Assembly: GCF_006265095.1 (NCBI RefSeq)
Contig: NZ_VCNK01000003.1
Location: 1-64,000, forward strand
From: Phaeobacter sp. B1627
Lineage (GTDB): Bacteria; Pseudomonadota; Alphaproteobacteria; Rhodobacterales; Rhodobacteraceae
Reading direction: 5' to 3'
Length of the DNA: 64,000 nt
A program made the translations under genes and the position numbers. Shown piece after piece: positions 8,831 to 59,441 of the stretch. The notes beneath the pieces were generated by a model. It was not told where the DNA came from, did not search any database, and saw nothing but the letters and a program-made list of their open reading frames with translations. Each line of letters starts with the position of its first letter. Position 1 is the first letter of the stretch.

Positions 8831-8899
8831 CTGGGTTGGGTCGGCAGTGGTGAGCAGGCAGGTGTGAGCAGGCTGGGTTGGGTAGGATGGGGAGCAGGC
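8831..8899. repeat. Short direct repeats between binding-protein and permease genes
   Basis: CTGGGTTGGGT occurs at 8831-8841 and 8873-8883. GAGCAGGC occurs at 8852-8859, 8866-8873 and 8892-8899. The pattern looks like an expanded, degenerate slippage repeat and lies inside what would be the leader of the permease cistron. Confidence 0.6.
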
Positions 8900-8926
8900 T
8901 ACGGACACGGATCCCGGATTTTAAGG

Positions 8927-8955
8927 GGAAAGGGGGGCACGCTGCCCCCCTTTCC
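8927..8955 (-). terminator. Intra-operon hairpin 3' of the amino-acid binding-protein gene
   Basis: Perfect 13-bp arms (8927-8939 and 8943-8955; GGAAAGGGGGGCA and its complement) enclose a 3-base loop, 25 nt past the binding-protein stop on the minus strand. No long U tract follows. A stable hairpin at this place usually protects the binding-protein message and attenuates permease expression, giving excess binding protein. Confidence 0.7.
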
Positions 8956-8980
8956 GGTCAGTTCAGCTGAAAGGGGGCGA

Positions 8981-9691: not shown

Positions 9692-9736
9692 GGTGGTACT
9701 CCCGTTGGGTTTGTTGGTCTGGTTGTTGGGTTGTGA

Positions 9737-43015: not shown

Positions 43016-43595
43016 TTGCAAGGCGGGGGGAGGTTACAACTTTTGACGACTGACCGAGCCGGGGGAGAATACGGGGCAAGCTGGGGGAGAAATCCAGTCT
43101 GAATTTCGCGATATATGTGCATTAGTTGAACAAATATCATGCTCTTGAGGGCAAAAATCACGCCAAAATCGCCATATTTGTGTTGATTTGTAAAATTTGT
43201 GTGCCTAGTGTTACCCAAGCTTCGAAGGCCTCGCCGCAGCAGTCAGGCATCCGGAGAAGCGCCCGGAGAAGCAATGTTGCGAGACGAATGGGGAGGAGCG
43301 CATTGGTCACATTGACGGCACAGGCGAGCGTGTATCCAAGCGCGGGCAGGGCGTGCCCACGCAAGGCGCGCACAAGGCGCACACAGGGATGCACGGCGCG
43401 CGCGCAGGCAGATAGGGATCTGTCAGTGACCCGTGCCTCCGCAGCGCGACAGCCATTTGGCGCAACCCGGTTTCAATTGCGCTGACCACCACCCATGACG
43501 ACGAACCGGCCACCCAGGATTTGCCTGCACCGGGCGACGCATGCACGACGCCAGAGCTTTCTGGCACCCGACATCTGTATAGGAGGAGCAGATCT
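43016..43595. other. Upstream region of the tctCBA operon with helically phased ATTTGT repeats
   Basis: In this 580-bp stretch the AT-rich segment 43090-43215 stands out. ATTTGT occurs at 43176, 43186 and 43195, about one helical turn apart, in ATTTGTGT, ATTTGTAA, ATTTGTGT context. These could be regulator sites (for example for the GntR at 46912) near a promoter. The tctC start has a strong AGGAGGAGC ribosome site. A GC-rich, Ala/Arg-coding frame across 43126-43485 starts with TTG without ribosome site and is not called. Confidence 0.45.
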
Positions 43596-44561
43596 ATGTT
43601 TTACAAAAACCTGAAAACCACCCTTGGTATCGCGCTTGGCGCGGGCGTTCTTTGGGCATCCGTCGCCGCGGCCGAGTTTCCGACCCGCGACATTCGCCTC
43701 ATCGTGCCATGGCCCGCAGGGGGCGGTGCGGACGCGATCTCGCGCAAAATCAGCAATATCGCCGAGCAGGATCTGCCGAAATCCATCTATGTGGAAAACA
43801 TCGCCGGCGCCGTCACCGCGACCGGTCTGATCCAGATGACCAATGCCCGTCCCGATGGCCATACCGTCGGTGTGATGACCTATGACAGCGTCATCACCCT
43901 GCCGCGCGGCCAGATGGTGCCGGGGTATGCGCTCGACAACATGAAGCTGATCGCGCGGGTCACCTCGGAGGCCGATGCCATTGTTGTCTCCAAACATTCG
44001 GGCATCGAGAGCTTTGAGGATCTGGTGGCCCGGGCGCGGGCAAACCCCGGCGAGCTGCGCGTCGGCGTGGCGCCGAAAGAGTCTGGTCCGTATCTTTCGG
44101 TGATGCAACTGGAAAAACTGCTCGACGTTGATTTCAACGTGATCACCTATGCCGGGTCCTCCAGCGCCGAAGCCGAAGCGCTGCTGTCGGGCGAATTGGA
44201 TGCGGCGATTTCCAGCCTTGGCGATTTCAGCGGCCTGCTGTCCTCCGGCGATGCCAAAGGCGTGGTCGAGCTGACATCGGTGCAGAACGCGACCTACACC
44301 GATGTTCCAACGCTGAAATCCAAAGGGCACGACCTGCAAACCGGGTCCTTCATCGTGCTGGCAGCGCCAGCCAACACACCGGATGATGCGGTCGAAACGC
44401 TGGAAGCCACTTTCAAGGCCGCCTACGACAGTGCGGAATTCCAGGACTGGCTGGCACAGATCGGCGTGACCGCCGATTGGCTGGGCTCCGAGGAGGTGGG
44501 GCCTTGGGTTGACGCACTGCAGGACAAGACGTTCACGCTGATGGACGAACTGGGCCTTTAA
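43596..44561 (+). CDS. tctC: Tripartite tricarboxylate transporter substrate-binding protein (TctC)
   Basis: The 321-residue periplasmic protein has a signal peptide MFYKNLKTTLGIALGAGVLWASVAAA and mature EFPTRDIRLIVPWPAGGGAD, the hallmark of the Bug/TctC family with its carboxylate-coordinating PWPAGGG loop. It binds dicarboxylates or other organic acids and delivers them to TctAB. ATG 43596 follows AGGAGGAGC. The hairpin at 44575-44606 lies directly after it. Confidence 0.93.
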   Translation: MFYKNLKTTLGIALGAGVLWASVAAAEFPTRDIRLIVPWPAGGGADAISRKISNIAEQDLPKSIYVENIAGAVTATGLIQMTNARPDGHTVGVMTYDSVITLPRGQMVPGYALDNMKLIARVTSEADAIVVSKHSGIESFEDLVARARANPGELRVGVAPKESGPYLSVMQLEKLLDVDFNVITYAGSSSAEAEALLSGELDAAISSLGDFSGLLSSGDAKGVVELTSVQNATYTDVPTLKSKGHDLQTGSFIVLAAPANTPDDAVETLEATFKAAYDSAEFQDWLAQIGVTADWLGSEEVGPWVDALQDKTFTLMDELGL

Positions 44562-44574
44562 TCCTGCACGCGAC

Positions 44575-44606
44575 CCATGTCTCCGGTCGACATGCCGGAG
44601 ACATGG
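44575..44606 (+). terminator. Intercistronic hairpin between tctC and tctB
   Basis: Perfect 12-bp arms CCATGTCTCCGG (44575-44586) and CCGGAGACATGG (44595-44606) enclose an 8-base loop (44587-44594), 13 nt past the tctC stop. No U tract follows, and tctB starts 148 bp later. It probably protects the tctC message, keeping the soluble binding protein in excess over the membrane subunits. Confidence 0.7.
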
Positions 44607-44753
44607 CCATGGCGGCGCCAGCGACGCAGAGGATCGCGCGGCTGGCCAACCGCCGGTTTTATTCTGCACCGGGGGCCCTGGTGCCACGGTTTCCCCCGCA
44701 CCGACTGCCGCCCGGCGCCGGCGGCCCCATCACACCCAGTCCGGGAGACGGCG

Positions 44754-45239
44754 ATGTTCTTGAACAGGCAAATGGTATTTCTGTGTGTCACTCTTGCAGT
44801 GTCTGCCGGCTATCTGGTGACGGCCCTGAGACTGGGCGCACCGATTGCCGAAAGCGGGCTGACGCCCGCGTTCTTTCCGATCCTTGTCGGCGGTGCGGCG
44901 ATCGTGTTTTGCAGCATCCTGATCCTGCAGGCGCTGCGGGCCGAGCGAGAGGCTCCGGCAAAGGGCGCCCCGGATGAGGAGCAGGATGAGGCACCGGAAA
45001 ACGAGGCGCAAGGCTACACCCATGTCTGGGTAGTGGTGGCGATCTTCTTCTACATCGTGGCGTTCAGGCCACTGGGCTATTTCATATCATCGGGCCTCTT
45101 CGTCTTTGCGCTGATCCTGCTGTTCTCAAATGTCGAGAAGCTGATCCTCAAGGGGGTCATCACGGCTGCAATCGTCGGGGTTGCCTATGTCATGTTCCAG
45201 CAATTGTTCGGGGTCCGGCTCCCGACACTATGGGGTTGA
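44754..45239 (+). CDS. tctB: Small membrane subunit of the tripartite tricarboxylate transporter (TctB)
   Basis: From MFLNRQMVFLCVTLAVSAGYLV the protein has 161 residues and four hydrophobic segments typical of TctB, with an acidic cytosolic loop (GAPDEEQDEAPENEAQG) between helices 2 and 3. ATG 44754 has GGGAGACGGCG upstream; longer starts would extend into Arg-rich intergenic sequence. The stop is 3 bp before tctA. Confidence 0.85.
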   Translation: MFLNRQMVFLCVTLAVSAGYLVTALRLGAPIAESGLTPAFFPILVGGAAIVFCSILILQALRAEREAPAKGAPDEEQDEAPENEAQGYTHVWVVVAIFFYIVAFRPLGYFISSGLFVFALILLFSNVEKLILKGVITAAIVGVAYVMFQQLFGVRLPTLWG

Positions 45240-45242
45240 ACC

Positions 45243-46769
45243 ATGGATTTCATCTTCCTCGTTTTCAGCAGCTTTTCCCTGTTGGCGGATCCGATCAACT
45301 TCACCTACGTCATCCTCGGCTTTGTGATCGGGACGATTTTCGCCGCCATTCCCGGGCTGACCGCGACGCTGGCGATGGCTCTGCTGTTGCCACTGACGTA
45401 TTCGCTCAGCGTGGAGACGGCGCTGATGGCCTGCGCCAGCATCTATATGGCCGGCATGTGCGGTGGCTCGATCACCGCCACCACGATCAATATCCCCGGC
45501 GCGCCCTCGTCGATGATGACGGCGCTTGATGGCTATCCCATGCAGCTGCAGGGAAAAGGCGCACTCGCGCTGGGGCATGCGGCGCTGGGGTCGATGTTTG
45601 GCGGCGCGGTGGGGGCGCTTTTGCTGATCGCGCTTGCCCCCTTTGTGGCCGAACTGTCGCTTTTGGTGAAAACCACGGGCAAATTCTCGCTGCTGGCCTT
45701 TGCGCTGATCGTTGTGGTGATTGCGCAGCGCGGCCGGATTCCGCAGGCCGGTCTGGCAGCCTGTATCGGCCTCATGCTGGCCACTGTCGGGCTTGACGCG
45801 ATGGAGCCGATCACCCGCTTCACCTATGGCTATTCCAACCTGACCGCAGGGATCGACCTGATGCCTGTGATCATTGGCACTTTTGCCATTGCCGAAGTGC
45901 TGACCCAGGCCTGCGCGCGTATCGATATCAGCGCCGCCACCGAAGCCGCCAACAAGGTCAAAATCCGCCGCCGCGATTTCCTGCCGCCGCTGGCGGAGAT
46001 CCGGCAAATCGGCTTCAGATGCTATTTCAAATCCTGCCTGATCGGCTATTTCGTCGGCACTTTGCCGGGTGCAGGGGGGTCGATGGGATCGTTCCTGGCC
46101 TATACCGAAGCGGTGCGCACCTCCTCCGAGCCGGAGACATTCGGCAAGGGCAACCCGAAGGGCATCGCCGCATCGGAAAGCGCCAATAACGCAGTCTGTG
46201 GCGGGGCGATGGTGCCGATGCTGACCTTTGGCATTCCGGGCGATCCGATCACTGCGATCATGCTGGGCGTTCTGGTCATCAACGGCATTCAGCCGGGGCC
46301 GCAGTTGATGGCTGACCAGGCGGGGCTGATCGCCCCGATGCTGGCGGCCCTGCTGTTCAGTGCTGTGGTGTTGATCCCTCTGACCCTGTGGTTGATCGGG
46401 CCGTATTTCATCAAAATCGTCTCGGTCCGCAAGGATGTGCTTTACGCCGTGATCGCGCTTCTGGCCGTCGTGGGCAGCTATGTCGCAACCTTTTCGACCT
46501 TTCAGATGTTCATGGCGCTTGGCATGGGGGTTCTGGCCTTTTACCTGCGGCGCAATGGCTTTCCGGTGATCACCATGCTGCTGGGCTATATCCTTGGGCC
46601 AAATCTGGAAGAGTTCCTGCGCCGCTCCCTGGCCTTGTCAAACGGCGATGCGACGACGTTTTTCACCAACCTCGACAGCCTGTTCTTTGTCGTGCTGACG
46701 CTGGTCTTCGTCTACTTCCTGGTGATCCGCAAACCGGCAAAACCATCCGCCGTTGCCGGGTCCGGCTAG
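45243..46769 (+). CDS. tctA: Large membrane subunit of the tripartite tricarboxylate transporter (TctA)
   Basis: The 508-residue permease has about 12 hydrophobic segments and the family motifs GTIFAAIPGLTATLAMALLLPLTY and GTLPGAGGSMGSFLAYTEAVRTSSEPETFGKG near residue 260, with GAMVPMLTFGIPGDP at about 325. It carries the ion-coupled translocation path of the TctABC transporter. Imported substrates are citrate- or tartrate-like organic acids in known cases; here the adjacent RraA and aldehyde dehydrogenase suggest a dicarboxylic or sugar acid. Confidence 0.95.
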   Translation: MDFIFLVFSSFSLLADPINFTYVILGFVIGTIFAAIPGLTATLAMALLLPLTYSLSVETALMACASIYMAGMCGGSITATTINIPGAPSSMMTALDGYPMQLQGKGALALGHAALGSMFGGAVGALLLIALAPFVAELSLLVKTTGKFSLLAFALIVVVIAQRGRIPQAGLAACIGLMLATVGLDAMEPITRFTYGYSNLTAGIDLMPVIIGTFAIAEVLTQACARIDISAATEAANKVKIRRRDFLPPLAEIRQIGFRCYFKSCLIGYFVGTLPGAGGSMGSFLAYTEAVRTSSEPETFGKGNPKGIAASESANNAVCGGAMVPMLTFGIPGDPITAIMLGVLVINGIQPGPQLMADQAGLIAPMLAALLFSAVVLIPLTLWLIGPYFIKIVSVRKDVLYAVIALLAVVGSYVATFSTFQMFMALGMGVLAFYLRRNGFPVITMLLGYILGPNLEEFLRRSLALSNGDATTFFTNLDSLFFVVLTLVFVYFLVIRKPAKPSAVAGSG

Positions 46770-47945: not shown

Positions 47946-48404
47946 TCATATCGGCAGGGCCGGTGTCTCGCGCAGGGACCGCACGACCAATGACGAGGTG
48001 TAATTGCGGATCGCGATATCGCTGTAGGTGTCGAGGAAATTATAGATGTATTCTGTATAGGCCTCGGCGGTGCGGAACTTGGCGATCATGATGAAGTCGA
48101 ACTCGCCGGTGGTGAGGTAGCAGGTCACCACCTCAGGCTGGCTTTGCAGGCGCCGAACGAGGCGCTGATCGACACCGGATGCATCCTGCGCCAGCTTGAT
48201 CATGAAGATCCCCGTGACGGTGAACCCAAGGATGGCGGGATCGAGCACCGCGCGCCGCGCCGCAATCGCACCGGATGCCTCGAGCGCCTTGATCCGCCGG
48301 TGACAGCTGGCCACCGAAAGGCTCACCCGCTCGCTGATCGCTTCGAGAGAGAGCGAACAGTCCTCCTGCAGGACGCGTAGGATGGCGAGATCGGTATCTG
48401 GCAT
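47946..48404 (-). CDS. Lrp/AsnC-family regulator divergent from the tyrosinase cluster
   Basis: From MPDTDLAILRVLQEDCSLSLEAISERVSLSVASCHRRIKALEASGAI the protein has 152 residues: an AsnC helix-turn-helix and a RAM effector domain (TVTGIFMIKL, EVVTCYLTTGEFDFIMIAKF). A longer frame from 48446 lacks a ribosome site. It is 113 bp and divergent from the tyrosinase gene. Lrp/AsnC proteins usually bind amino acids, so an aromatic amino acid such as tyrosine as effector is a reasonable hypothesis. Not identified further. Confidence 0.85.
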   Translation of the reverse strand: MPDTDLAILRVLQEDCSLSLEAISERVSLSVASCHRRIKALEASGAIAARRAVLDPAILGFTVTGIFMIKLAQDASGVDQRLVRRLQSQPEVVTCYLTTGEFDFIMIAKFRTAEAYTEYIYNFLDTYSDIAIRNYTSSLVVRSLRETPALPI

Positions 48405-48406
48405 TA

Positions 48407-48469
48407 TTTTTCTCTGTCGGGTCAACGGCCAGAACATTCTTACCACGATCGGCGGGAATGTGAGAAAAA
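48407..48469. promoter_or_regulatory. Candidate Lrp-family control region before the tyrosinase gene
   Basis: Two nested, non-concentric inverted repeats lie in the 113-bp divergent gap: TTTTTCTC (48407-48414) with GAGAAAAA (48462-48469), and ACATTC (48434-48439) with GAATGT (48456-48461). Lrp-family sites are loose inverted repeats, so this is suggestive only. Confidence 0.35.
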
Positions 48470-48517
48470 ATTTGCACGGTATGCGTGTATCATGGTGGCG
48501 TTGCTATGGGGGGAACA

Positions 48518-50284
48518 ATGATCACCGCGAAACCGACATGGGTCGATGACATTCAGGGCCTTTTTGCCGCGCCCTTCTGGTTGCCGCCAGAGGATCGTGC
48601 CAAGGTCGGCCAGGGCTGGCTGGGATGCATGCGCGGCTACCTGATCGACCTGGCCGACTACGACTCCGTGCGTGAGTGGTCGGTGACGATCTATGACCAC
48701 CTGATCTCGCGATCTATGCCGCTGACGGACGATACCCGCCAGTTCTGGCCGCTCGACGCGCTTGAGACGTTCCGGCTCTGGGTCAATCAGGGATGGCGGC
48801 GCGATGCCCATGCACCCTTTGACGAGGCGCCGCGCATTCCCAAACCTGCAGTTCCGCGGGGCAAACTGCGCATGCGTCGCGACCTTGCCGCGATGAGCGC
48901 CGCCGAGATCGATGACTTCCGCGCCCGGCTTGACGATGTGATGGACATTGGCAATCCCGCGCCAACCGCGCCCTGGCAAAAGTGGGCCTATATCCACACC
49001 AACTGGTGCCTGCATTATCAGGAGGCCTTCGCGCTGTGGCACCGCGCCTACCTCGTCTATCTGGAGAACCTGCTGGGCTGCGCCATCCCCTACTGGGATT
49101 TCATGGCTGCAGACGCCAGCAAGCCCGATAGCCCACAGGCGGGGCTGCCGCAGGCTTTTCTGGATGAAACCTATGTCCACCCGGGGACCCGGGAAACCCG
49201 TCCCAACCCGCTGCGGTTCGCCGCCGCCAAGGACGGCCAGTCCAAATACTGCGCGGCGACGGGCAAGCGTGGCGGCGATTGCCTCTATGTGCACCGCGAC
49301 CCGCTGTTCTACACCCGGGGCGACGACCACCGCGCCGAACGCGCGCGGCTTTTTGCCATGGCGGGGCTGTTCCAGCAGCAGGTGGTCGATGCGCTTGCCT
49401 TTGACACCTTCAGCGTGCCGCAGGGCAGCCCCGGCTTTCCATGGGCCAATATCCCGGCCTTCACCCCGCCGCAGCCCGACAAGGACTATCCCTACCGGGA
49501 CCAGAATTTTGACGGCGCCTTCGAGCAGCCACATGACAATTATCACGGCTGGATCGGGCCGGACATGGCCGACAACGCCTATACCGCCTTTGATCCGGTG
49601 TTCATCTCCTATCATGCCAATATCGACCGGATGCTGGAGCGTTGGATCCGCAGCCATCCGGTGGCGCAGTATTCGGTCGGTGTGCCGCTGCGCCCCTTTG
49701 TCGGGCAGGACGCGGCCGTGATCAATGAGCGGACCAGCGAGCTCTGGCGTTACACGACGCTGGGCGACATGGCGCAGGACAGTCGGCACATTGGCTACGA
49801 CTACGGCCCGCCCGCAGCGCCACAGTTCAAGGGCGCGCAGCACAGCGGCGGCCGGGGCGCTGTTGCCGCCGCCGCTGGCGCAACCCATGCGGCCTGGGTG
49901 ATCTTTGACGGGGTGCGCTGCACGCACGACAGCTATGCCATCGATGTGTTCCTGGGCGGTGAGGCGGGGCAGGCGGGGGCGGAGAACCCGGCCTACGTCG
50001 GGCGGTTCAGCCGCATCGGCATGGGCATCCAGGACGACAAGGGCCGCTGCATCCGCCATGGCGTCAGCCGGATGCTGGATGCCGCTCCGGCCGCGCGGGC
50101 GCTTGGCCTGCCGACGGGCAGCGATCCGGGGTTGGCGATCCGGGTCACGCATCTGCACGAAAACCGCGAGGTGACGCCCGACGAATACCGAACGTTGCCG
50201 GGGTTCGTTCCCTTCTTTCACTGGGGTGACGCGCGCTGCGCCCCGATCGACAAAGGGGCGCCCGGCCAGTGCTGCAGCGCCTGA
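48518..50284 (+). CDS. Tyrosinase / polyphenol oxidase family protein
   Basis: Starting at ATG 48518 (ribosome site GGGGGGA 6 bases before) the protein has 588 residues. It is a type-3 copper oxidase: CuA ligands His160, His166 and His175 (the last two spaced H-x8-H in LHYQEAFALWH) and CuB ligands His339, His343 (HDNYH) and His366 in DPVFISYHANIDR. Cys164 precedes His166 as Cys-X-His, the arrangement that forms a thioether in fungal tyrosinases. The His usually before the third CuB ligand is Tyr365. There is no signal peptide, so it is cytoplasmic unless exported with a partner. A ~110-residue N-terminal extension has no motif I know. The C-terminal part (about 435-588) resembles the polyphenol-oxidase C-domain. 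It is the first gene of a three-gene unit and could oxidise phenols or tyrosine residues. Confidence 0.85.
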   Translation: MITAKPTWVDDIQGLFAAPFWLPPEDRAKVGQGWLGCMRGYLIDLADYDSVREWSVTIYDHLISRSMPLTDDTRQFWPLDALETFRLWVNQGWRRDAHAPFDEAPRIPKPAVPRGKLRMRRDLAAMSAAEIDDFRARLDDVMDIGNPAPTAPWQKWAYIHTNWCLHYQEAFALWHRAYLVYLENLLGCAIPYWDFMAADASKPDSPQAGLPQAFLDETYVHPGTRETRPNPLRFAAAKDGQSKYCAATGKRGGDCLYVHRDPLFYTRGDDHRAERARLFAMAGLFQQQVVDALAFDTFSVPQGSPGFPWANIPAFTPPQPDKDYPYRDQNFDGAFEQPHDNYHGWIGPDMADNAYTAFDPVFISYHANIDRMLERWIRSHPVAQYSVGVPLRPFVGQDAAVINERTSELWRYTTLGDMAQDSRHIGYDYGPPAAPQFKGAQHSGGRGAVAAAAGATHAAWVIFDGVRCTHDSYAIDVFLGGEAGQAGAENPAYVGRFSRIGMGIQDDKGRCIRHGVSRMLDAAPAARALGLPTGSDPGLAIRVTHLHENREVTPDEYRTLPGFVPFFHWGDARCAPIDKGAPGQCCSA

Positions 50285-50310
50285 AATGCGACCAGATGGA
50301 GAGAACAGAG

Positions 50311-52047
50311 ATGACGACTTTTGACCGTTTCACAACGCCGGCCCATCAGGGACCGAAAGACTACGACATGCTGGGCCTGCCGAAGAGCCAGCTGGAGGCC
50401 TTCCAGCAGGGCTGGTCCGGCAATGTCAACGGCTGGACCAACTCGGCCCTGACTGGCGACCCGTGGTCCAGCCTGAACGACGCGCCGCGCACCGGGTATT
50501 TCAACCCGCTGACCGACGGTGGCCTCGGCACCGGGGGCGATGCCGTGGTGTCCTGGGTTCCCTTCCCGAACCGTCTGATCGCCTTTCTGACGCAGGCGGG
50601 GATCGTTGAGGGCGGCCAGCTGAGCGCGCCGCTTTCCCTGAACGAGGTCTATGCACTGGCCGATACCGGCAGTTTCACACAGGGCGGCAACCGCTTTTTC
50701 CTCAACCCGGTACAGCACGGCCAGGACGAGCTGCAGATCCCCGCCGAGCGCTGCCCGCAGGTGAATTGGTCCGGGAAATACGTGCCATTCTCGCCGAACG
50801 GGCCGCGCGGCTGGCAGGACGAATATTGCGAATGGTCGATTGAACGCAATCAAGCAGGCAAGATGCAGGCGATCAACTTCACCTGTGAGAACCCGGCCTA
50901 TTACCTGACCATGTGGCGCCAGAACCCCGAGGCGGTGCTGGGCCTCTATCAGAGATATGCGGATCCGGCTGTGCGCATGGAGGATCTTTTCCTGTGCTAC
51001 AGCGTCGATCAGCCGACCGGTCAAAAGGGCGAGCCGGTGGTCGATCCCACCACCGGCTTTCCCGCCTATGATCCGACGAATAAATGGAACAATGGCCCGG
51101 TGCGGGTGCCCGGATCCTGGGGCGGGGCGATGCATCTGACATCGCCGCCCAACACGCTGTCGGCCGAAATCTACCTGGCCGCCGCCGCGACAATCCCGCG
51201 CTCTGACACGGCCAGCCAGAACCCGCAGACCCTGATCTGCTGCGCGAAATATGGCCAGAACTTCCGCAACTCGGACCCGAATATCGGCTTCAATGCCAAT
51301 GCTGCAGCCTACAAAGGGATGATCACGCTGACCGATCCGGTCGGGCTATACATTCAGCAGCCGCAGGATTTCTCGACCTGGAAAGGCCCGAACGGCGAGG
51401 ATCTCACGGAGTTCTGGCAGATTTTGCGCGGCACCGCAGGCACCGGGCCGAGCGGCTCGGATCAGATCCTGCATGCGCAGTTCGCAATCCCCGCAGATGC
51501 CGGTTTCACGATCGAGGACTGCACCATCAACGGCCAGCCGATTTCCAGTGTTGCGATCATTCTGAACCAGATGAAGATCGCTCTGTCGGTCAGCCTGCGC
51601 CCCCCTCCCGGGCCGTCGGCCCCGGTGCCTTGTGTCACCGACAGGACGACGGGCGTGCAGCCCTGGCCGGTACAGTTGCTGCCCGAATCCCTGTTCTACG
51701 GGCAATCGCCCAGCGACCTGCCGGCGCTTCTGCACCCAGGCAAGGAGAACCGCTTCGTGCTGATTGTGCAGGGCGCGGACAAGTCCACGACCGCGCAGAA
51801 CGCCCGCATCCAGTTTTCCGACCCGAATATCACTGCCACGGTCGAAACCTTCCTGAAGGATGCGGCGGCGGTGCCCGGACAGACCGACGGCGGCACGACG
51901 CAGGGCTATATCATGACCGTGAGCACAGGCAGCGGGGCTCAGCCCGGGCCGGTGCAAATCCGCGCGTTGAACCCGGGCGAGGGGCCCGACCCATCCCCCG
52001 AAGACCACCCGTGGGAATATGGGCTGGCCATGGTGCCGCAGTCCTGA
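50311..52047 (+). CDS. Uncharacterised 578-residue protein of the tyrosinase cluster
   Basis: I do not recognise this family. ATG 50311 follows GGAGAG by 8 bases and 26 bp after the tyrosinase stop; longer starts overlap that gene. There is no signal peptide or transmembrane helix. Eight cysteines (residues 148, 173, 192, 229, 310, 311, 404, 441) and the aromatic-rich blocks WQDEYCEWSIERN (168-180) and FTCENPAYY (190-198) stand out. The central part is glycine/proline-rich with beta-like spacing; the C-terminal third (from about 455) looks like a beta-sandwich (ENRFVLIVQGADKSTTA). It could be a substrate, chaperone or partner of the tyrosinase, but this rests only on position. Confidence 0.75.
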   Translation: MTTFDRFTTPAHQGPKDYDMLGLPKSQLEAFQQGWSGNVNGWTNSALTGDPWSSLNDAPRTGYFNPLTDGGLGTGGDAVVSWVPFPNRLIAFLTQAGIVEGGQLSAPLSLNEVYALADTGSFTQGGNRFFLNPVQHGQDELQIPAERCPQVNWSGKYVPFSPNGPRGWQDEYCEWSIERNQAGKMQAINFTCENPAYYLTMWRQNPEAVLGLYQRYADPAVRMEDLFLCYSVDQPTGQKGEPVVDPTTGFPAYDPTNKWNNGPVRVPGSWGGAMHLTSPPNTLSAEIYLAAAATIPRSDTASQNPQTLICCAKYGQNFRNSDPNIGFNANAAAYKGMITLTDPVGLYIQQPQDFSTWKGPNGEDLTEFWQILRGTAGTGPSGSDQILHAQFAIPADAGFTIEDCTINGQPISSVAIILNQMKIALSVSLRPPPGPSAPVPCVTDRTTGVQPWPVQLLPESLFYGQSPSDLPALLHPGKENRFVLIVQGADKSTTAQNARIQFSDPNITATVETFLKDAAAVPGQTDGGTTQGYIMTVSTGSGAQPGPVQIRALNPGEGPDPSPEDHPWEYGLAMVPQS

Positions 52048-52119
52048 TCCGACGTGCGGCCCCGTGTCAGCTGCGGGGCCCGCGCGATATTCTTTGAACC
52101 CGATCTAGGAGGTGAAGTC

Positions 52120-53673
52120 ATGCTGTCCCTCGCCCGCTCGCTTTCGGGGGCCGCTCTGGCCGCCGGGGTCTACCTCGCACTGGCGGCTCCCGCCCAGGCC
52201 GATTGCACCAGCCAGCTCATTCTCAACCCGGCCTCGCCGCTGTTCCTGACCAGCGACACGCCCTTCCTGAGCACCCAGCCGGATGTGAACTGCTATTCCT
52301 GGCAGATGTTCATCAGCCTGAACTGGCCGGCCGATCCAGACTGGCCGGGGGTGCCTGCGAAAGCGGGAGAGCCAGACCGCAGCGCCGCGATGGCCGATTT
52401 CGGCAAGCCCGGCGGCAGTGGCCAGCCGATGGCGGGGGCGACGGTCTGGGAAAGCTTCATGCCCGCGCCCGGTATCTTCAAGCCGGGCGCGGCGACACCC
52501 GATGCCTGGGGCACGCGGCCGCCCCTGCCGCCATCGTGCAAAAGCACCGGACTGCGCGCTGCCGGGAGCTATCCCAAGGTGCTGACGGCCAGCAGCAAGG
52601 CGGCGGTCCATCCAAGGCATGGGTTCAACCTGACCACCGGCACGCAGGCCTCGCAGTCGGATGAGATCATGGAGGCGGTGGGCGGCTGGCTGACCGATCA
52701 GAGCGGCAAGCTGGTGTTCTTCGAGCGGCTCGTGGGCAAAGCCGAATATGACTATATCGCGGGCTCCGGGCTTTATGACGCGGCGACCCAGATGTCGGTC
52801 GCCACCAATGCCGATGGCACTACGCCGCAGGGGCTGTCGCTGCCTGCCGGTGCGCGCATCCTGCGTCCGCCCTCGACGCCGCAGCCGCAGGAAGAGCTGG
52901 GCGCGTTCGAGCTGAAGGCCGCCTGGCGCGTGCTGACCGGAATGACGGCGCAATACCCGCGCTACCTGACCGCCAGCACCTGGCTGCTGCGGCCCGATAC
53001 CGGGGTCTGCACCCAGGAGGTGGTCGGGCTGGTCGGCCTGCACATCATCCACAAGACCTCGACCTTTCCCGATTTTGTCTGGGCGACCTTTGAACAGGTG
53101 GACAACGTTCAGGAAAAGACCGGCGAAACGCCCCCGCCCGGCGGCTACAGCTTTTTCGACCCGAGCAGCAGCGAAACGCCGAACCAGCCACGCATCAAAT
53201 GCTCGTCCTCCGGCTGCACGGATCTCTTTCCGCGCGATCAGCCGGTTCAGGTGACGCGGGAGGTTCCGACGGTTCAGGCGATGGACAGCCTCAACAGCGC
53301 CGTGCAGTCGCTGATCAAATCGCAAAGCGGCGGTGCGTCGGTGTTTCAGTACTACAAGCTGGTGAATGTCCTGTGGGACGGCGCGCCGACGCCGCCGATG
53401 AACGAACCGGGCGCGAATGCGAAGGTGCCGCTGCACTATGGCAGCTTCGAAAGCCAGGGCAATCAGCCGGTCGCCAATACCACGATGGAGACCTATGCGC
53501 AGAAGGTCGGCGGCGGATCGAACGCCGATGACGCGTCCTGCAACATTTGCCACCGGGGCGCGACCATCGCAGGCAGCTCGACGCTGGCCTCGGATTTCTC
53601 GTTCCTGTTCGGCACTGCGTCCTCGCAGGCATCGGTTCCCGGCGTCACAGTCTCACAGGAGTTCAGACCCTGA
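52120..53673 (+). CDS. Exported 517-residue protein with one C-terminal haem c motif
   Basis: Start ATG 52120 (MLSLARSLSGAALAAGVYLALAAPAQA, cleavage after residue 27) is preceded by AGGAGG. The mature protein starts DCTS and carries a conserved-looking NCYSWQMFISLNWP block (57-70), GVCTQEVVGLVGLHIIHKTSTFPDFVWATFEQVD near 320, and a single CNICH haem c-binding motif at residues 474-478. No Met follows that motif, so the distal axial ligand must come from elsewhere. The family resembles unassigned 'cytochrome c family' proteins of marine bacteria. It probably passes or accepts electrons in the periplasm and is the exported member of the tyrosinase cluster. Confidence 0.75.
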   Translation: MLSLARSLSGAALAAGVYLALAAPAQADCTSQLILNPASPLFLTSDTPFLSTQPDVNCYSWQMFISLNWPADPDWPGVPAKAGEPDRSAAMADFGKPGGSGQPMAGATVWESFMPAPGIFKPGAATPDAWGTRPPLPPSCKSTGLRAAGSYPKVLTASSKAAVHPRHGFNLTTGTQASQSDEIMEAVGGWLTDQSGKLVFFERLVGKAEYDYIAGSGLYDAATQMSVATNADGTTPQGLSLPAGARILRPPSTPQPQEELGAFELKAAWRVLTGMTAQYPRYLTASTWLLRPDTGVCTQEVVGLVGLHIIHKTSTFPDFVWATFEQVDNVQEKTGETPPPGGYSFFDPSSSETPNQPRIKCSSSGCTDLFPRDQPVQVTREVPTVQAMDSLNSAVQSLIKSQSGGASVFQYYKLVNVLWDGAPTPPMNEPGANAKVPLHYGSFESQGNQPVANTTMETYAQKVGGGSNADDASCNICHRGATIAGSSTLASDFSFLFGTASSQASVPGVTVSQEFRP

Positions 53674-54238: not shown

Positions 54239-55576
54239 ATGGCGAGTAGCCACCAGGCATCCGGAATCCGGCCCGCACGCTTGTCCGCGGCCGAGATTGC
54301 AGACAATTTCGCGGACCTTCACGCGCCGTTCGATGCGCATGAGGCGGCCGTCGCGGCGGATCGTTGTTATTTTTGCTATGATGCGCCCTGCATGACCGCA
54401 TGCCCGACATCGATCGACATCCCGCAGTTCATTCGAGAGATCCAGGCCGGGCATGCGGACAGCGCCGCCAAGACGATTTTCAACCAGAATATCCTCGGCG
54501 GGATGTGCGCGCGGGTCTGCCCGACAGAGACGCTCTGCGAAGAGGTCTGTGTCCGCGAGGTCGCGGAGGGCAAGCCGGTCGAAATCGGGCGCCTGCAGCG
54601 GTTTGCCACCGATCAGATGATGGCCAAGGGCGTGCATCCCTTCTCCCGCGCGGCCCGCACCGGCAAGACGGTGGCCGTTGTGGGGGCGGGCCCGGCGGGT
54701 TTGTCGGCGGCGCATCGTCTGGCGATGAAGGGACACGACGTTGTTGTTTTTGAGGCAAGACCCAAGCCTGGTGGCCTCAATGAGTTCGGGATCGCCGCCT
54801 ACAAGTCCACCGATGGCTTTGCCGCCCGCGAAGTCGCCTGGTTGCTGCAGATCGGTGGGATTTCAATCGAATACGGCAAGGGGATCGGGGTTGGGCTGAC
54901 GCTGTCCGATCTTCAGACCGGCTATGACGCTGTCTTCCTGTCCATCGGGCTGACCGGTGTCAACAGCCTGCGCGCGGCGGGCGAAGACAAGGCCGGCGTG
55001 CGCGATGCGGTTGATTTCATTGCGGAGTTGCGACAGGCCGAAGACCTGACCGCGCTGCCTGTCGGGCGCAATGTTGTGGTGATTGGCGGCGGGATGACGG
55101 CCATTGACGCGGCCGTACAGTCAAAGCTGCTGGGCGCTGAAAACGTCACAATCGCCTATCGTCGCGATCGCAGCGCCATGGGGGCCAGCCGGTTTGAACA
55201 GGATCTTGCGGCGTCCAGAGGCGTCAAGCTGATGTTCAACGTCATGCCCCGCGCGATCCTCGGTGCGGGGGCGGCGGTGGAGATCGAACTGGAGTATACC
55301 GAGGTTGTCGACGGACGTGTTCGCGGCACTGGCGAAACGGTGCGGGTGCTGGCGGATCAGATCTACAAGGCCATCGGGCAGACCCTGCAACAGGCGCCGG
55401 AGGGGCTGGAGATCGACGGCGGCAAGATCAGGGTCGCAGCCGACACCGGGCGGACCTCGGTTGCGGGCGTCTGGGCCGGGGGGGATTGTGCCTCGGGTGG
55501 GGACGATCTGACCGTGACCGCCGTCGCAGAGGGTCGCGATGCGGCCGAGGATATTCACGCAAGCCTGATGGGCTGA
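54239..55576 (+). CDS. preT: NAD-dependent dihydropyrimidine dehydrogenase, small (FAD/Fe-S) subunit
   Basis: The 445-residue flavoprotein has an N-terminal Fe-S domain with two cysteine clusters (Cys43, 46, 51, 55 and Cys90, 94, 100, 104), then the FAD-binding GAGPAG (149-154) and NAD-binding IGGGMTAID motifs. It is the electron-input half (PreT/PydX) of bacterial dihydropyrimidine dehydrogenase, which reduces uracil and thymine with NADH together with PreA. It starts 53 bp before preA; GAGGGAGAC provides the ribosome site. Confidence 0.93.
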   Translation: MASSHQASGIRPARLSAAEIADNFADLHAPFDAHEAAVAADRCYFCYDAPCMTACPTSIDIPQFIREIQAGHADSAAKTIFNQNILGGMCARVCPTETLCEEVCVREVAEGKPVEIGRLQRFATDQMMAKGVHPFSRAARTGKTVAVVGAGPAGLSAAHRLAMKGHDVVVFEARPKPGGLNEFGIAAYKSTDGFAAREVAWLLQIGGISIEYGKGIGVGLTLSDLQTGYDAVFLSIGLTGVNSLRAAGEDKAGVRDAVDFIAELRQAEDLTALPVGRNVVVIGGGMTAIDAAVQSKLLGAENVTIAYRRDRSAMGASRFEQDLAASRGVKLMFNVMPRAILGAGAAVEIELEYTEVVDGRVRGTGETVRVLADQIYKAIGQTLQQAPEGLEIDGGKIRVAADTGRTSVAGVWAGGDCASGGDDLTVTAVAEGRDAAEDIHASLMG

Positions 55577-55629
55577 GCCAGCGGTGACCGGCTTTGCCGG
55601 ACCCAGCAAGCAGAACAAGGAGAGATCAA

Positions 55630-56934
55630 ATGGCTGATCTGACAACAGAGTTTCTCGGCATCACATCACCGAACCCCTTTTGGCTGGCCTCGGCGCCGCC
55701 GACCGACAAGGAATACAACGTTCGCCGCGCCTTTGAGGCGGGCTGGGGCGGGGTGGTCTGGAAGACGCTCGGCGCAGAAGGGCCGCCGGTGGTGAATGTG
55801 AACGGCCCGCGCTACGGCGCAATCTGGGGCGCGGACCGGCGGCTTTTGGGGCTGAACAATATCGAGCTGATCACCGACCGCCCGCTGGACGTGAACCTGG
55901 CCGAGATGACCCGCGTCAAGAAGGACTACCCGGATCGTGCGCTCATTGCCTCGATCATGGTGCCCTGCGAGGAAGCCGCATGGAAGGCGATCCTGCCGCG
56001 GGTGGCGGAAACCAATGCGGATGGGATCGAGCTGAACTTTGGCTGCCCCCATGGCATGGCGGAGCGGGGGATGGGCTCTGCGGTGGGGCAGGTGCCGGAA
56101 TACATCCAGATGGTCACAGAGTGGTGCAAGCAATATTACGACCGGCCGGTGATCGTGAAGCTGACCCCCAACATCACCGACATCCGTCATCCCGCCCGGG
56201 CCGCGCATGCGGGCAATGCCGATGCGGTGAGCCTGATCAATACCATCAACTCCATCACCTCGGTGAATTTGGATGCGATGGCGCCGGAACCGATGATTGG
56301 CGGCAAGGGCACCCATGGCGGCTATTGCGGTCCGGCGGTCAAGCCGATCGCGATGAATATGGTGGCGGAGATTTCCCGCGATCCGCAGACGGCGGGCCTG
56401 CCTATTTCGGCGATTGGCGGGATTACCACATGGCGTGATGCGGCCGAGTTCATCGCGCTGGGGGCCGGGAATGTGCAGGTGTGCACCGCCGCAATGACCT
56501 ATGGGTTCAAGGTGGTTGAGGAAATGATCTCGGGTCTGTCAGACTGGATGGATGAGAAGGGCTACGCTTCTATCGAGGAATTCCGGGGCATGGCGACACC
56601 GAATGTCACGGACTGGCAGTATCTGGATCTGAATTACGTCGCCAAGGCCCGGATCAGTCAGGATGATTGCATCAAATGCGGGCGTTGCTTTGCCGCCTGT
56701 GAGGATACCTCGCATCAGGCCATCGCGATGTCGGCGGACCGCACATTCACCGTGAAGGATGACGAATGTGTGGCCTGCAACCTCTGTGTGAATGTCTGTC
56801 CGATCGAGGGCTGCATCACCATGGAGGAGGTCCCCGTGGGGCAGGTGGATGAACGCACCGGCAGAGTTGTGAGCGGTGACTACAGCAACTGGACGGTGCA
56901 TCCAAACAACCCCTCCGCCGCAGCGGCGCAATAG
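55630..56934 (+). CDS. preA: NAD-dependent dihydropyrimidine dehydrogenase, catalytic subunit
   Basis: The 434-residue FMN protein has a dihydroorotate-dehydrogenase-like barrel with the catalytic cysteine in FGCPHGMAERGMG (Cys139), equivalent to Cys671 of mammalian DPD. Two C-terminal 4Fe-4S motifs follow, CIKCGRCFAAC and CVACNLCVNVC. Start ATG 55630 follows AAGGAGAG; a frame from 55594 would invade the intergenic. With PreT it makes the first step of reductive pyrimidine degradation (uracil to dihydrouracil). Confidence 0.95.
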   Translation: MADLTTEFLGITSPNPFWLASAPPTDKEYNVRRAFEAGWGGVVWKTLGAEGPPVVNVNGPRYGAIWGADRRLLGLNNIELITDRPLDVNLAEMTRVKKDYPDRALIASIMVPCEEAAWKAILPRVAETNADGIELNFGCPHGMAERGMGSAVGQVPEYIQMVTEWCKQYYDRPVIVKLTPNITDIRHPARAAHAGNADAVSLINTINSITSVNLDAMAPEPMIGGKGTHGGYCGPAVKPIAMNMVAEISRDPQTAGLPISAIGGITTWRDAAEFIALGAGNVQVCTAAMTYGFKVVEEMISGLSDWMDEKGYASIEEFRGMATPNVTDWQYLDLNYVAKARISQDDCIKCGRCFAACEDTSHQAIAMSADRTFTVKDDECVACNLCVNVCPIEGCITMEEVPVGQVDERTGRVVSGDYSNWTVHPNNPSAAAAQ

Positions 56935-56955
56935 GGGGGGCTCCCGCCCGTGCGA

Positions 56956-57018
56956 TCTGCATTGAAAATGCAGACCTCCCCGTTGGGCCCGGCGCCGCGC
57001 ATTCGCGCGGCGCTTTGC
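56956..57018. repeat. Tandem hairpins after preA (dispersed element copy B)
   Basis: First hairpin: TCTGCATT (56956-56963) and AATGCAGA (56967-56974) with loop GAA. Second: lead CGTTGGGCCCGGCGC (56981-56995) and arms GCGCCGCGC (56992-57000) with GCGCGGCGC (57005-57013) around ATTC, followed by TTTGCGTTTC. The second is a near-copy of the element at 1-38. Between the converging preA and rutR genes, together they look like a bidirectional terminator. Confidence 0.6.
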
Positions 57019-57148
57019 GTTTCGCCCCGGTGCGCGGTCTGCTGCCAGATCTGCCGACAGGTCAGCCAACAGGTGAGCCGTCCGGCCGACAGTGGGGCCG
57101 TGGCCCGGGGCGTCCGTTTTCACAACAAAACGGCGCAGTCCTGTTCTG

Positions 57149-57763
57149 TCAGCTTTGAGGTGTAAGCATGCGTCGATACAGGGTTTCCAGGAATTCCGAG
57201 GCGCCGTCAAACGGGTCGTCTGGCGTCATCAGAGTGCGCACCTGGACCTCAAAATCCGCATAGTGCTGGGTCAGCGACCAGATCGAGAACAGCAAATGGC
57301 GCGGGTGTACCCGGGCAATCCGTCCCGCGTCCATCCAGCCTAGAAAGACGGCTTCCGTGGCGTCGACCAGCACCCGCAGGTCCGTCGACAGCGCGTCAAT
57401 CATGCGGGGCGCGCCCTGCACGATCTCATTGGCGAACAGGCGGCTTTCTCGTGGCATATCCTTGCTCATCTGCAGCTTGCGCTCCACATAGGCGAGGATC
57501 TCTGCCATTGGGTCGCCGTCGGGGTTGATCTCGCGGAGCGGATCGAGCCAGGTGTCGAGGAGCGCCGAGAGCAGGGCGGTGAAGATCGCGTCTTTGGATG
57601 GGAAGTAGTAGAGAAGGTTGGGTTTTGACAGCCCGGCCGCCGTCGCAATCTGGTCTACCGTCGCGCCACGAAAACCGTTTTGAGAGAACACCTCCAGCGC
57701 GGCCTCGAGAATATTGGCTCGATTGCGTTTCTGGATTCTGGTCGGGCTGCGGTCTTTGGGCAT
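57149..57763 (-). CDS. rutR: TetR-family regulator, RutR-like pyrimidine repressor
   Basis: The 204-residue protein has a TetR DNA-binding domain (about residues 10-60; ILEAALEVFSQNGFRGATVDQIATAAGLSKPNLLYYFPSKD) and a helical ligand domain with the RutR-like ANEIVQGAPRM and IWSLTQHYADFEVQV. The C-terminus ends RMLTPQS. RutR senses uracil and thymine. It is convergent with preA and divergent from the beta-ureidopropionase gene, with a perfect RutR operator in between, which makes the assignment strong. Confidence 0.9.
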   Translation of the reverse strand: MPKDRSPTRIQKRNRANILEAALEVFSQNGFRGATVDQIATAAGLSKPNLLYYFPSKDAIFTALLSALLDTWLDPLREINPDGDPMAEILAYVERKLQMSKDMPRESRLFANEIVQGAPRMIDALSTDLRVLVDATEAVFLGWMDAGRIARVHPRHLLFSIWSLTQHYADFEVQVRTLMTPDDPFDGASEFLETLYRRMLTPQS

Positions 57764-57899
57764 GGGGGCCGGGTCTCTTTGCTTTGGGGACGAACTTAAA
57801 CTCTCGTCGTTTTCGCTCAGTTGTCCAGCAACTCTGATCTAAAACGGCCCGGAAGGCGCGCAATTTCTTGACTGAGTCTGATCTGGTGATAGCGTGAGT

Positions 57900-57915
57900 T
57901 TGACCAGTTGGTCAA
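57900..57915. promoter_or_regulatory. Perfect RutR palindrome between rutR and the ureidopropionase gene
   Basis: TTGACCAGTTGGTCAA is an exact match to the RutR consensus TTGACCA-N2-TGGTCAA, and flanking T/A extend it to 18 bp. It lies in the 298-bp divergent gap. Toward rutR, TTGACC at the edge of the site followed 18 bp later by TATCAC could be a promoter under autorepression; toward the right, TTGACT at 57868-57873 precedes the site. Confidence 0.85.
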
Positions 57916-58061
57916 ATGTATGGTTGCCCGATCCGCAGGATCTGCCCCGGTTGCGGGATATGACAGACCAACGGATCGGCCACTGACCCAGGCTGCAGGC
58001 AGCCGCATTCAACTCATCCCGCAGATGAGGATGGGACCGGCGACAGGGAAGGAAACACGAG

Positions 58062-59312
58062 ATGACGACTCTCGGAAAGAATTTGAAGATCAATGGCGAC
58101 CGTTTGTGGGACAGCCTGATGGAAATGGCCCAGATCGGTCCCGGCGTGGCGGGCGGCAACAACCGCCAGACGCTGACGGATGAAGACGCCGAAGGGCGGG
58201 CCTTGTTCCAGACCTGGTGTGAAGCGGCGGGTCTGACCATGGGGCTCGACACGATGGGCAATATGTTCGCAACCCGCGCAGGCACGGATCCGGATGCGCT
58301 GCCGGTCTATATGGGATCCCACCTCGATACGCAGCCAACGGGCGGCAAATATGACGGTGTGCTTGGTGTGCTGGGCGGGCTGGAAGTCATCCGCACCCTC
58401 AATGACCTCGACATCAGGACCAAGCATCCGATTGTGGTCACCAACTGGACCAACGAGGAAGGCACGCGGTTTGCCCCGGCGATGCTGGCCTCGGGCGTGT
58501 TCGCGGGCAAGCACACGCAGGAATGGGCCTATGGGCGCACTGATGCAGAGGGCAAGACATTCGGCGATGAGCTGAAGCGCATCGGCTGGGTCGGCGATGA
58601 GGCCGTCGGCGCCCGCAAGATGCACGCGATGTTCGAACTTCATATCGAACAGGGGCCAATCCTGGAGGCGGAGAACAAGGACATCGGCGTGGTCACCCAT
58701 GGGCAGGGCCTGTGGTGGCTGCAATGTACGGTGACCGGAAAGGATGCCCATACCGGGTCCACCCCCATGAACATGCGGGTCAATGCCGGGCTTGGCATGG
58801 CGCGCATGACCGAGGCCGCGCATCAGATCGCCATGGCGCATCAGCCGCATGCGGTGGGGGCGGTTGGTCATTGCGACGTCTACCCCAATTCCCGCAATGT
58901 GATCCCCGGCAAGGTGGTGTTCACGGTCGATTTCCGCACGCCCGATCTCGAGAAGCTGACGGCCATGCGGTCCCAGTTCGAATCGCAGGCGAAACAGATC
59001 GCAGAGGATCTGGGGCTTGGGCTTGAGATCGAGCCGGTGGGCCATTTTGACCCGGTCACCTTTGATGCGGGCTGTGTCTCGGCGGTGCGCGATGCGGCAG
59101 AGCGTCTGGGCTACAGTCACATGGATATCGTGTCGGGTGCCGGCCACGATGCCTGCTGGATCAATGATCTGGCACCGACGGCGATGATCATGTGTCCCTG
59201 CGTGGATGGGCTGAGCCATAATGAGGCAGAAGATATATCCAAGGAATGGGCTGCTGCGGGGACGGATGTCATGCTACATGCTGTGCTTGAGACTGCAGAG
59301 ATCGTGGAATAG
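58062..59312 (+). CDS. pydC: N-carbamoyl-beta-alanine amidohydrolase (beta-ureidopropionase), M20 family
   Basis: The 416-residue Zn-dependent amidase has the M20 metal site: His87 and Asp98 in GSHLDTQPTGGKYDG, Glu132/133 in TNEEG, His in ELHIEQGPILE and a C-terminal His in GAGHDA. The dimerisation segment GKDAHTGSTPM is in the middle. It belongs to the HyuC/AmaB/PydC group and performs the last step of reductive pyrimidine degradation, N-carbamoyl-beta-alanine to beta-alanine. The start is 130 bp upstream of the dihydropyrimidinase. Hydantoin-type carbamoylase activity cannot be excluded from sequence. Confidence 0.9.
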   Translation: MTTLGKNLKINGDRLWDSLMEMAQIGPGVAGGNNRQTLTDEDAEGRALFQTWCEAAGLTMGLDTMGNMFATRAGTDPDALPVYMGSHLDTQPTGGKYDGVLGVLGGLEVIRTLNDLDIRTKHPIVVTNWTNEEGTRFAPAMLASGVFAGKHTQEWAYGRTDAEGKTFGDELKRIGWVGDEAVGARKMHAMFELHIEQGPILEAENKDIGVVTHGQGLWWLQCTVTGKDAHTGSTPMNMRVNAGLGMARMTEAAHQIAMAHQPHAVGAVGHCDVYPNSRNVIPGKVVFTVDFRTPDLEKLTAMRSQFESQAKQIAEDLGLGLEIEPVGHFDPVTFDAGCVSAVRDAAERLGYSHMDIVSGAGHDACWINDLAPTAMIMCPCVDGLSHNEAEDISKEWAAAGTDVMLHAVLETAEIVE

Positions 59313-59441
59313 GCGATCATTGAGATAGGGGCGAATGCCCGGTCGCGTCCGCGCGGCACCTCCGGGATACAGGGCCGCAAGACGCCCAGCCGGGGAGACA
59401 AACAAACGGCGCCGCAGCGTCGACCGACAGGGAGTTGTACT

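Follow-up and report, generated by a model that had tools for sequence, protein, structure and literature searches.

The 64,000-nucleotide stretch of Phaeobacter sp. B1627 DNA analysed here (contig NZ_VCNK01000003.1, positions 1 to 64,000; "the window") carries, between positions 47,946 and 53,673, a gene for an Lrp/AsnC-family regulator and, divergent from it, three same-strand genes designated A, B and C. The window gene calls placed all four genes where a preliminary description, made from the sequence, had put them, and the spacings it gave (26 bp between A and B, 72 bp between B and C) were exact:

47946..48404, minus strand: Lrp/AsnC-family regulator P0004, 152 residues from ATG (PF13404, 1.3e-14; PF01037, 6.1e-11)
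48405..48517, no strand: Lrp–A intergenic region, presumed control region (alignment of 7 such regions)
48518..50284, plus strand: A, leaderless hemocyanin-like tyrosinase (type 3 copper protein), 588 residues (PF00264, E 2e-28)
50311..52047, plus strand: B, leaderless 578-residue protein of an undescribed family (no Pfam, NCBIfam or meaningful PDB match)
52120..53673, plus strand: C, exported 517-residue protein with one CxxCH (no Pfam, NCBIfam or meaningful PDB match)

Purine-rich stretches resembling ribosome-binding sites precede B and C (read by eye). The Lrp–A–B–C cassette recurred, in the same order, in six other genomes or plasmids (loci L002, L003, L004, L008 and L101, and genome G463), and thus the grouping is not due to chance; nor were homologues of A or B found mostly alone or in unrelated contexts in the samples searched. 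As the preliminary description had supposed, this conserved set appears to be undescribed: full-text literature searches on this combination, on the accessions and locus tags of Paracoccus and on tyrosinase gene neighbourhoods did not find the system in the excerpts returned. The core of the system is the pair of B and C, and the tyrosinase is accessory.

The window genes flanking the cassette (43521-46769 and 54239-60896) differ from those flanking it in Paracoccus (L090); from reading the sequence, we take them to resemble a tripartite tricarboxylate transporter with a GntR regulator and a pyrimidine-degradation set. Genes called by script came from a simple scorer of open reading frames, which may miss or mis-start genes, and leaders were called by our own hydrophobicity threshold in place of a signal-peptide predictor.

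Proteins B and C and their linkage

Neither B nor C matched a Pfam or NCBIfam model at E ≤ 1 (NCBIfam for the window proteins only), single-sequence phmmer and profile searches of the PDB returned nothing meaningful for either, and their relatives gave scattered weak Pfam matches. The preliminary description had called B unrecognised and Cys-rich; the former holds, the latter does not (8 Cys, 14 Trp and 18 Tyr in 578 residues). AlphaFold models were obtained for B (predicted local distance difference test, pLDDT, 90.3; predicted template-modelling score, pTM, 0.91; alignment of 66 sequences) and for C (pLDDT 84.0, pTM 0.88; alignment of 60 sequences). When they were compared with the PDB by Foldseek, and that of B also with BFVD, no match was found at E ≤ 1e-3; the best PDB rows for B were weak, mostly immunoglobulin (Ig)-like, with template-modelling scores near 0.1 of the query. 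"New fold" is used below in this sense, as not found in the PDB by Foldseek. Two parts of B can be distinguished:

50806..51588, plus strand: B core, residues 166-426, common to the short form of B described below, with QDEYCEW, FTCENP, GGAMHL and RNSDPNIG (17 of 18 invariant residues)
51589..52044, plus strand: C-terminal beta-rich domain, weakly Ig-like, absent from short B (AlphaFold model, weak Foldseek matches)

Eighteen residues were identical in all 84 B sequences, 17 of them in the core and the other being Trp82. This set, which includes Trp82, Asp170, Glu171, Tyr172, Trp175, Glu193, Tyr197, Tyr213, Asp225, His275, Asp322, Tyr347 and Arg373, looks like an active site as judged from the alignment. 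At a threshold of 97% of the 84 sequences, 36 columns are conserved, and these include five Tyr and three Trp. No Cys is universal (Cys173 in 80 of 84, Cys192 in 72), which rules out a Cys–Trp or Cys–Tyr crosslink as a universal feature of B. A leader was present in 2 of the 84. The LodA families PF17990 and PF18417 were not matched by B and were absent from the eight families matched by 66 B sequences at E ≤ 0.1; the DyP families PF21105/PF20628 were matched by neither B nor C. One search each of phage records and of viral contigs found no B. In Bacteroidota (L051, L055, L079), B has an extra C-terminal domain in its last 147 residues; its resemblance to PA-IL/LecA is no more than suggestive (PF07828, E 0.01, below the cut-off, in one of three tested; PDB searches gave no confirmation).

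The claim that C is a Sec-exported protein with a C-terminal CxxCH was borne out by two features:

52120..52203, plus strand: leader of C that resembles a signal peptide, residues 1-28, cleavage site not predicted (50 of 60 C have a hydrophobic N-terminus)
53539..53553, plus strand: CNICH, residues 474-478 of C, c-type haem motif (CxxCH in 60 of 60 aligned C)

The starts of the ten C sequences below the leader threshold may have been wrongly chosen. Since the CxxCH is present in every aligned sequence, that of the window included, it is not a chance motif. Invariant in all 60 were Cys474, Cys477, His478, His308 and Tyr412, and Cys29 and Cys58 were present in 59 and 56, respectively; in the alignment, these residues would fit one haem, a second axial ligand and a disulfide. 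C thus combines the CxxCH and the export signal expected of a c-type cytochrome. A known cytochrome c domain or fold was recognized in C of the window (P0003) neither by Pfam nor by Foldseek at E ≤ 1e-3, and at most 3 of the 60 sequences gave weak cytochrome matches (best E 0.009). With one CxxCH and no PF03150 match, C differs from the MauG/CCP type, which has two CxxCH motifs and PF03150. From its motif, C can be classed as probably working like a c-type haem protein that carries a putative haem. Among 198 genomes of the family, weak-to-moderate relatives of C occurred in six besides that of the window. Of B-less relatives of C, one lies near a DyP peroxidase and a P450 and has an extra CxxCH (L081), and another lies beside a GMC oxidoreductase (L083).

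A scan of one genome per species with six B peptide patterns yielded 101 relatives of B, from which 79 loci were kept; the sample was, therefore, found through B. C lay directly downstream of B on the same strand in 76 of these and directly upstream in one (L009). As to the remaining two, L069 has D, another exported CxxCH protein, and the contig of L013 ends just after B. Over the 77 downstream pairs, the window included, the gap was 179 bp or less in all but three pairs (270 bp, 312 bp and, where B is broken, 654 bp), and in 13 Chryseobacterium loci, B and C overlap by 4 bp. Genes broken in the deposited sequence (C of L005, B and C of L037) were left so. The distance matrices of B and C correlated with r 0.93 over 76 pairs, a value reached in none of 2000 permutations and to which shared ancestry contributes. 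The genes next to the pair, on the other hand, varied: the commonest Pfam family (E ≤ 1e-5) accounted for 3 of 86 nearest neighbours and LodA for two, in the sister loci L024 and L056. These 86 were picked from 173 candidates after exclusion of 26 loci (A–B–C loci and near-copies), and the known partners (A, D, a second B, the Chryseobacterium tyrosinase) were left out of the count. Hosts of B belong to six phyla (Pseudomonadota, Bacteroidota, Myxococcota, Cyanobacteriota, Bdellovibrionota and Vulcanimicrobiota), within which the distribution can be patchy: B was found in 1 of 198 genomes of the window's family and 2 of 289 of its class.

Other partners of B

A short B (about residues 1-426, without the C-terminal domain) was found on plasmids of rhizobia, Azospirillum, Mycetohabitans and cyanobacteria; 11 of 20 such matches were read. 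In 6 of the 11, a DyP-type peroxidase lies directly downstream (L091, L095, L096, L097, L098 and L100), of which that of L098 has a weak Pfam match and 35% identity to the DyP of L096, and that of L091 is identified by annotation and by 38-40% identity to the other DyP partners. In the other five, the partner is x, an unrecognised protein of 490-560 residues, which is encoded upstream of short B in L087, L088, L089 and L099 and fused to it in L094. x shares 29-31% identity (E 1e-48 to 1e-67) with its homologue D, the 600-residue protein beside the second B of Nostoc and Enhygromyxa:

L094:6970-9834: x–B fusion, one reading frame of 954 residues, Azospirillum argentinense plasmid p5
L057:5365-7164, L053:11181-13082, L087:4068-5711 and L088:4083-5738: members of the D/x family (for D of L053, the start was guessed)

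All four D sequences have a leader and CFDCH or CFACH, and all four x sequences have neither, the His being kept. c-type haem attaches only outside the cytoplasm; if the cysteines carry such a haem, they would be expected to disappear together with the leader. C and D could not be supported as remote relatives, as profile comparison aligned only 11 columns, at the CxxCH. The D–B–A order of Nostoc is the counterpart of A–B–C.

Several short-B clusters contain LodA-type oxidases, PF12902 ferritin-like proteins (which we take to be related to VioB), radical-SAM and halogenase-like proteins, S8/S53 peptidases or phospholipase D. Together with the DyP, P450 and GMC genes near the B-less relatives of C (L081, L083), these associations, taken as raw observations, may point to oxidative chemistry. 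Three clusters deserve separate description:

L089:1657-20955: cluster on a Bradyrhizobium conjugative plasmid with C-like, short B, x, LodA-type, PF12902, radical-SAM and Trp-halogenase-like genes, and a CHAT gene further on
L098:9977-13501: DyP-type partner of B fused to leucine-rich repeats
L091:4466-8459: a GH108 gene and a small possible holin (by reading, without a family match) preceding short B and DyP

The GH108 protein and the possible holin of L091 could provide a release route for leaderless proteins.

Tyrosinase A and the Lrp-type regulator

The assignment of A as a cytoplasmic type 3 copper oxidase is supported by the sequence: it matches PF00264 with 100.7 bits (gathering score 22.6), and a hydrophobic N-terminus was absent from all 12 A sequences. 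Its best-scoring PDB matches are multi-domain molluscan hemocyanins, whose scores are summed over repeats, with bacterial and fungal tyrosinases below them; against the MelC2 equivalog NF047834, A scored 35.4 bits, below the cut-off of 450. The relevant residues are as follows:

48698..48700, plus strand: His61, candidate sixth copper ligand (kept in 11 of 12)
49007..49015, plus strand: Cys164-Leu-His166, C-x-H motif as in molluscan hemocyanin (aligns with CLH/CIH of hemocyanin units; 11 of 12)
49613..49615, plus strand: His366, copper-B ligand together with His339 and His343 (alignment)

The five canonical ligands (positions 166, 175, 339, 343 and 366) are kept, together with His61, in 11 of 12 sequences. 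A C-x-H motif is expected to form a thioether. Judged by the usual spacing of such ligands, A seems to lack His at the first copper-ligand position. His61 is a candidate for the sixth ligand because it is kept in the 11 sequences and is Phe in the ligand-less copy of G463, while His160 is kept in all 12; the presence of His at position 60 in G463 weakens this candidacy. The C-terminus of A (window 50230-50284) is a short Cys-containing tail, CCSA-, CCH-, CPACH- or CHCD-like in the 11 copies with ligands, and possibly binds metal.

The copy of A in G463 (445-449 residues; PF00264, E 4e-10) lies in an Lrp–A–B–C operon whose B and C are intact, the CxxCH of C included:

L126 (G463), about 3533-4870 and 8636-9991: ligand-less tyrosinase in the operon, and a di-haem CCP_MauG gene

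In the alignment, Cys164 and all five canonical ligands of this copy are replaced. Met at 166, Tyr at 175 and Cys at 366 are clear losses; a His two residues before 339 and the one before 61 mean that the alignment could hide a shifted ligand. As far as the sequence goes, this copy suggests that A can serve the operon without catalysis. Tail to tail with C in G463 is the CCP_MauG gene (E 6.9e-48), a relative of which was not found when the other loci were scanned by script.

An A-subfamily gene (at least 48% identity) was present in the fetched flanks of 9 of the 79 B loci: in the order A–B–C in L002, L003, L004, L006, L007 and L008, as B–C–A in L023, and beside the second B in L057 and L058. 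Strong matches to A in the 289 class genomes occurred in the same two as B, ten others having weak tyrosinase-level matches only, and among the 198 family genomes, B and a strong A were found only in that of the window, four others having weak A matches. Of 37 B genomes that we chose from the 79 loci, the eight known to carry the A subfamily among them, these eight carried it (at least 50% identity), each inside the known B locus, and 29 did not; eight more of the 37 had weak tyrosinase matches, one at the B locus (L020) and seven elsewhere. Thus, the three-part pathway driven by the tyrosinase, which the preliminary description had proposed, is not supported.

A tree of 84 B sequences was computed by a quick search with support from SH-like approximate likelihood-ratio tests (SH-aLRT), 11 loci being left out as near-copies or mis-started; the short-B rows are on long branches and unsurely placed. 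The presence of A requires four changes on this tree and falls in three separate parts, with gains and losses indistinguishable: a clade of Paracoccaceae, Rhizobiaceae, Halomonadaceae and G463 (9 of 10 rows), one of six Nannocystis, and two of three Nostoc sequences of the second B type. The sole row of the window's clade without A, L005 (2-1860), has SCO-like (by reading) and c-type cytochrome genes upstream of B. In this clade, the cassette of a Sinorhizobium sojae plasmid (L101) is 62% (A), 61% (B), 58% (C) and 56% (Lrp) identical to that of the window, and the Halomonadaceae loci L006 and L007 have A–B–C without a match to the window's Lrp protein. In Paracoccus denitrificans PD1222, a laboratory strain amenable to genetic work, the cassette lies on plasmid 1 (PDEN_RS23105-23120), annotated as Lrp/AsnC regulator, tyrosinase family protein, hypothetical and hypothetical.

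Nine of the 14 Chryseobacterium loci have, upstream of B–C, a different tyrosinase (28% identity to A in the alignment) followed by a gene for 255 residues; of the remaining five, one is truncated 391 bp upstream of B. The 255-residue product is, in L020, a PpoB2 copper chaperone. A LodA-like match next to a distant tyrosinase match was seen in the genome of L072 (L125), in a region that does not overlap with its B–C locus.

The divergent regulator is of the Lrp/AsnC family, as claimed: P0004 contains an AsnC-type helix-turn-helix (54.2 bits) and an AsnC ligand-binding domain (42.5 bits), both above the cut-off. The longer start assumed for it earlier is also open. Such a gene is present at the same position in L002, L003, L004, L008, L101 and G463 (57% identity in the last), that is, with the window, in 7 of 9 A–B–C loci of the clade. 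Conservation of the Lrp–A intergenic region was weak (6 invariant columns in the alignment of 7), no inverted repeat was common to the 5 regions searched, and a conserved Lrp operator was not found in these regions. Control of the cassette by the Lrp protein is therefore inferred from gene position.

Interpretation and known systems

We tentatively read B and C as the core of an undescribed, patchily spread redox module to which the tyrosinase is accessory, and give this reading somewhat less than an even chance. B would have a new fold and be constantly accompanied by the product of an adjacent gene, a redox partner; this is usually C and, in other lineages, D (an unrelated CxxCH protein), its leaderless relative x or a DyP-type haem peroxidase. 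B and its partner would form a physical complex, in which C probably carries haem and redox chemistry may take place at the invariant Tyr, Trp, Asp, Glu and His residues of B. The tyrosinase would be an accessory oxidant that can persist as a copper-less pseudoenzyme; as it occurs on three parts of the B tree, was never encountered apart from B in the searched samples and persists without its copper ligands, it probably also binds B. The window set may be switched by the divergent Lrp regulator, presumably in answer to an amino acid. That unrelated partners stand beside a constant B suggests either that B supplies the substrate site to a redox partner or that B itself is oxidised. The latter fits the variety of partners better, the former needs fewer assumptions, and neither explains how B and C meet. 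This last point weighs most plainly against a B–C complex: B is leaderless in 82 of 84 sequences while C is exported, so that contact between them would require B to leave the cell interior by some other route. It is joined by the single CxxCH of C and its lack of a recognisable cytochrome fold, by the occurrence of C-like proteins without B, and by the fact that a shared operon can mean shared regulation without contact, one fusion having been seen. Two families are nonetheless nearly always co-encoded in loci found across six phyla, and B also stands beside unrelated oxidants; should B and C indeed make up a redox complex, they would represent an entire two-component oxidation system that has escaped notice. 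Such a complex can be tested directly through the exchange of partners, the x–B fusion and the ligand-less tyrosinase.

The two models of the preliminary description, oxidation of phenols by A with electrons passing to C and maturation of B by A, both need changing, because most B loci have no A and the A of G463 has lost its canonical ligands. A broader form of the second is unlikely: C, D or x, DyP or the tyrosinase would oxidise Tyr or Trp of B to a protein-derived cofactor, after which B would be the working enzyme. MauG installs such a cofactor in methylamine dehydrogenase. Constancy of B beside interchangeable, unrelated oxidants would be explained, as would the five Tyr and three Trp among its most conserved columns; LodA-family genes near B in L024, L056, L089 and L097, radical-SAM genes in L089, L094, L095, L098 and L100, and the CCP_MauG gene adjoining C in G463, where the tyrosinase is seemingly dead, point the same way. 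Against these stand the absence of a universal Cys, which leaves a Cys–Trp or Cys–Tyr crosslink no family feature, the one CxxCH of C where MauG-type enzymes have two, the apparent separation of B and C in different compartments, and the failure of the script to find a second relative of the G463 MauG gene in other loci. It would go further, and is a rather unlikely proposition, to see B as the founding member of an enzyme class with a Tyr- or Trp-derived radical or quinone cofactor installed by the adjacent oxidant; exported and leaderless partner pairs would then be one machine adapted to two compartments.

For the first model, in which the tyrosinase oxidises a phenolic or amino-acid substrate and B and periplasmic C handle the electrons or quinones, one can cite the co-encoding of A, B and C beside an Lrp-type gene in most A–B–C loci of the clade and the retention of the copper ligands in all but one A. 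Tyrosinases pass electrons to O2 and need no cytochrome, however, and with 70 of 79 B loci lacking an A-subfamily gene in the fetched flanks, 29 of the 37 chosen genomes lacking it altogether, and the canonical ligands missing in G463, this model is doubtful. An antagonistic system is improbable as well: leaderless B would be released by another route, the oxidants would make or use quinones or peroxide against competitors, and C would protect the producer. The patchy spread in family and class would suit it, as would the GH108 gene near B–DyP in L091 and the plasmid-borne clusters of short B, in which S8/S53 peptidases, phospholipase D, a lipase, LodA-type oxidases and an NB-ARC protein are encoded; many of these plasmids are conjugative. 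Amino acid oxidases are called antimicrobial through H2O2 in PMC4417212. C, with its CxxCH in 60 of 60 sequences and 20 invariant columns, seems too conserved for a typical immunity protein, though, secretion genes were not conspicuous in the 25 commonest families of the 86 B–C neighbours, and the single searches of phage records and viral contigs yielded no B. The remaining alternative, an ordinary operon for melanin formation or copper handling in which two lineage-specific genes assist the tyrosinase, is very improbable: A is a tyrosinase, and L020 has a distant tyrosinase and PpoB2 upstream of B–C, but most B–C loci have no adjacent A-type tyrosinase, A falls far short of the MelC2 cut-off (35 of 450 bits), and the distribution of B–C disfavours it.

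Of known systems, Streptomyces MelC1/MelC2, an operon for a tyrosinase and its caddie (PMC6312201), resembles the cassette in that a leaderless tyrosinase is encoded with a partner. B, by contrast, is a protein of 578 residues whose fold had no match in the PDB; it occurs widely without a tyrosinase next to it, and its partners are haem-type proteins. MauG and the di-haem CCPs (PF03150; PMC6405878) are similar as exported c-type haem proteins encoded with a possible protein substrate, whereas C, with its single CxxCH, matches neither PF03150 nor a PDB fold. The LodA/GoxA quinoproteins with LodB (PMC4417212 and PMC3948610) likewise pair an oxidase-type protein with the product of a dedicated gene; B has no match to LodA_N or LodA_C, and no LodA structure was among its best 50 Foldseek rows. 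A tyrosinase with PpoB2 (PF09948), a type 3 copper enzyme with a helper gene, is found upstream of B–C in L020 itself, but that tyrosinase is of a different subfamily from A, and no such gene lies between A and B in the window. DyP peroxidases (PF21105/PF20628) are alternative partners of short B, whereas in the window no DyP gene lies beside B and C has no DyP match. We call the B–C system new, since both core proteins lack a named family and a known fold among those searched and the literature searches turned up no description of it; the novelty is the pair of B and C, not the tyrosinase.

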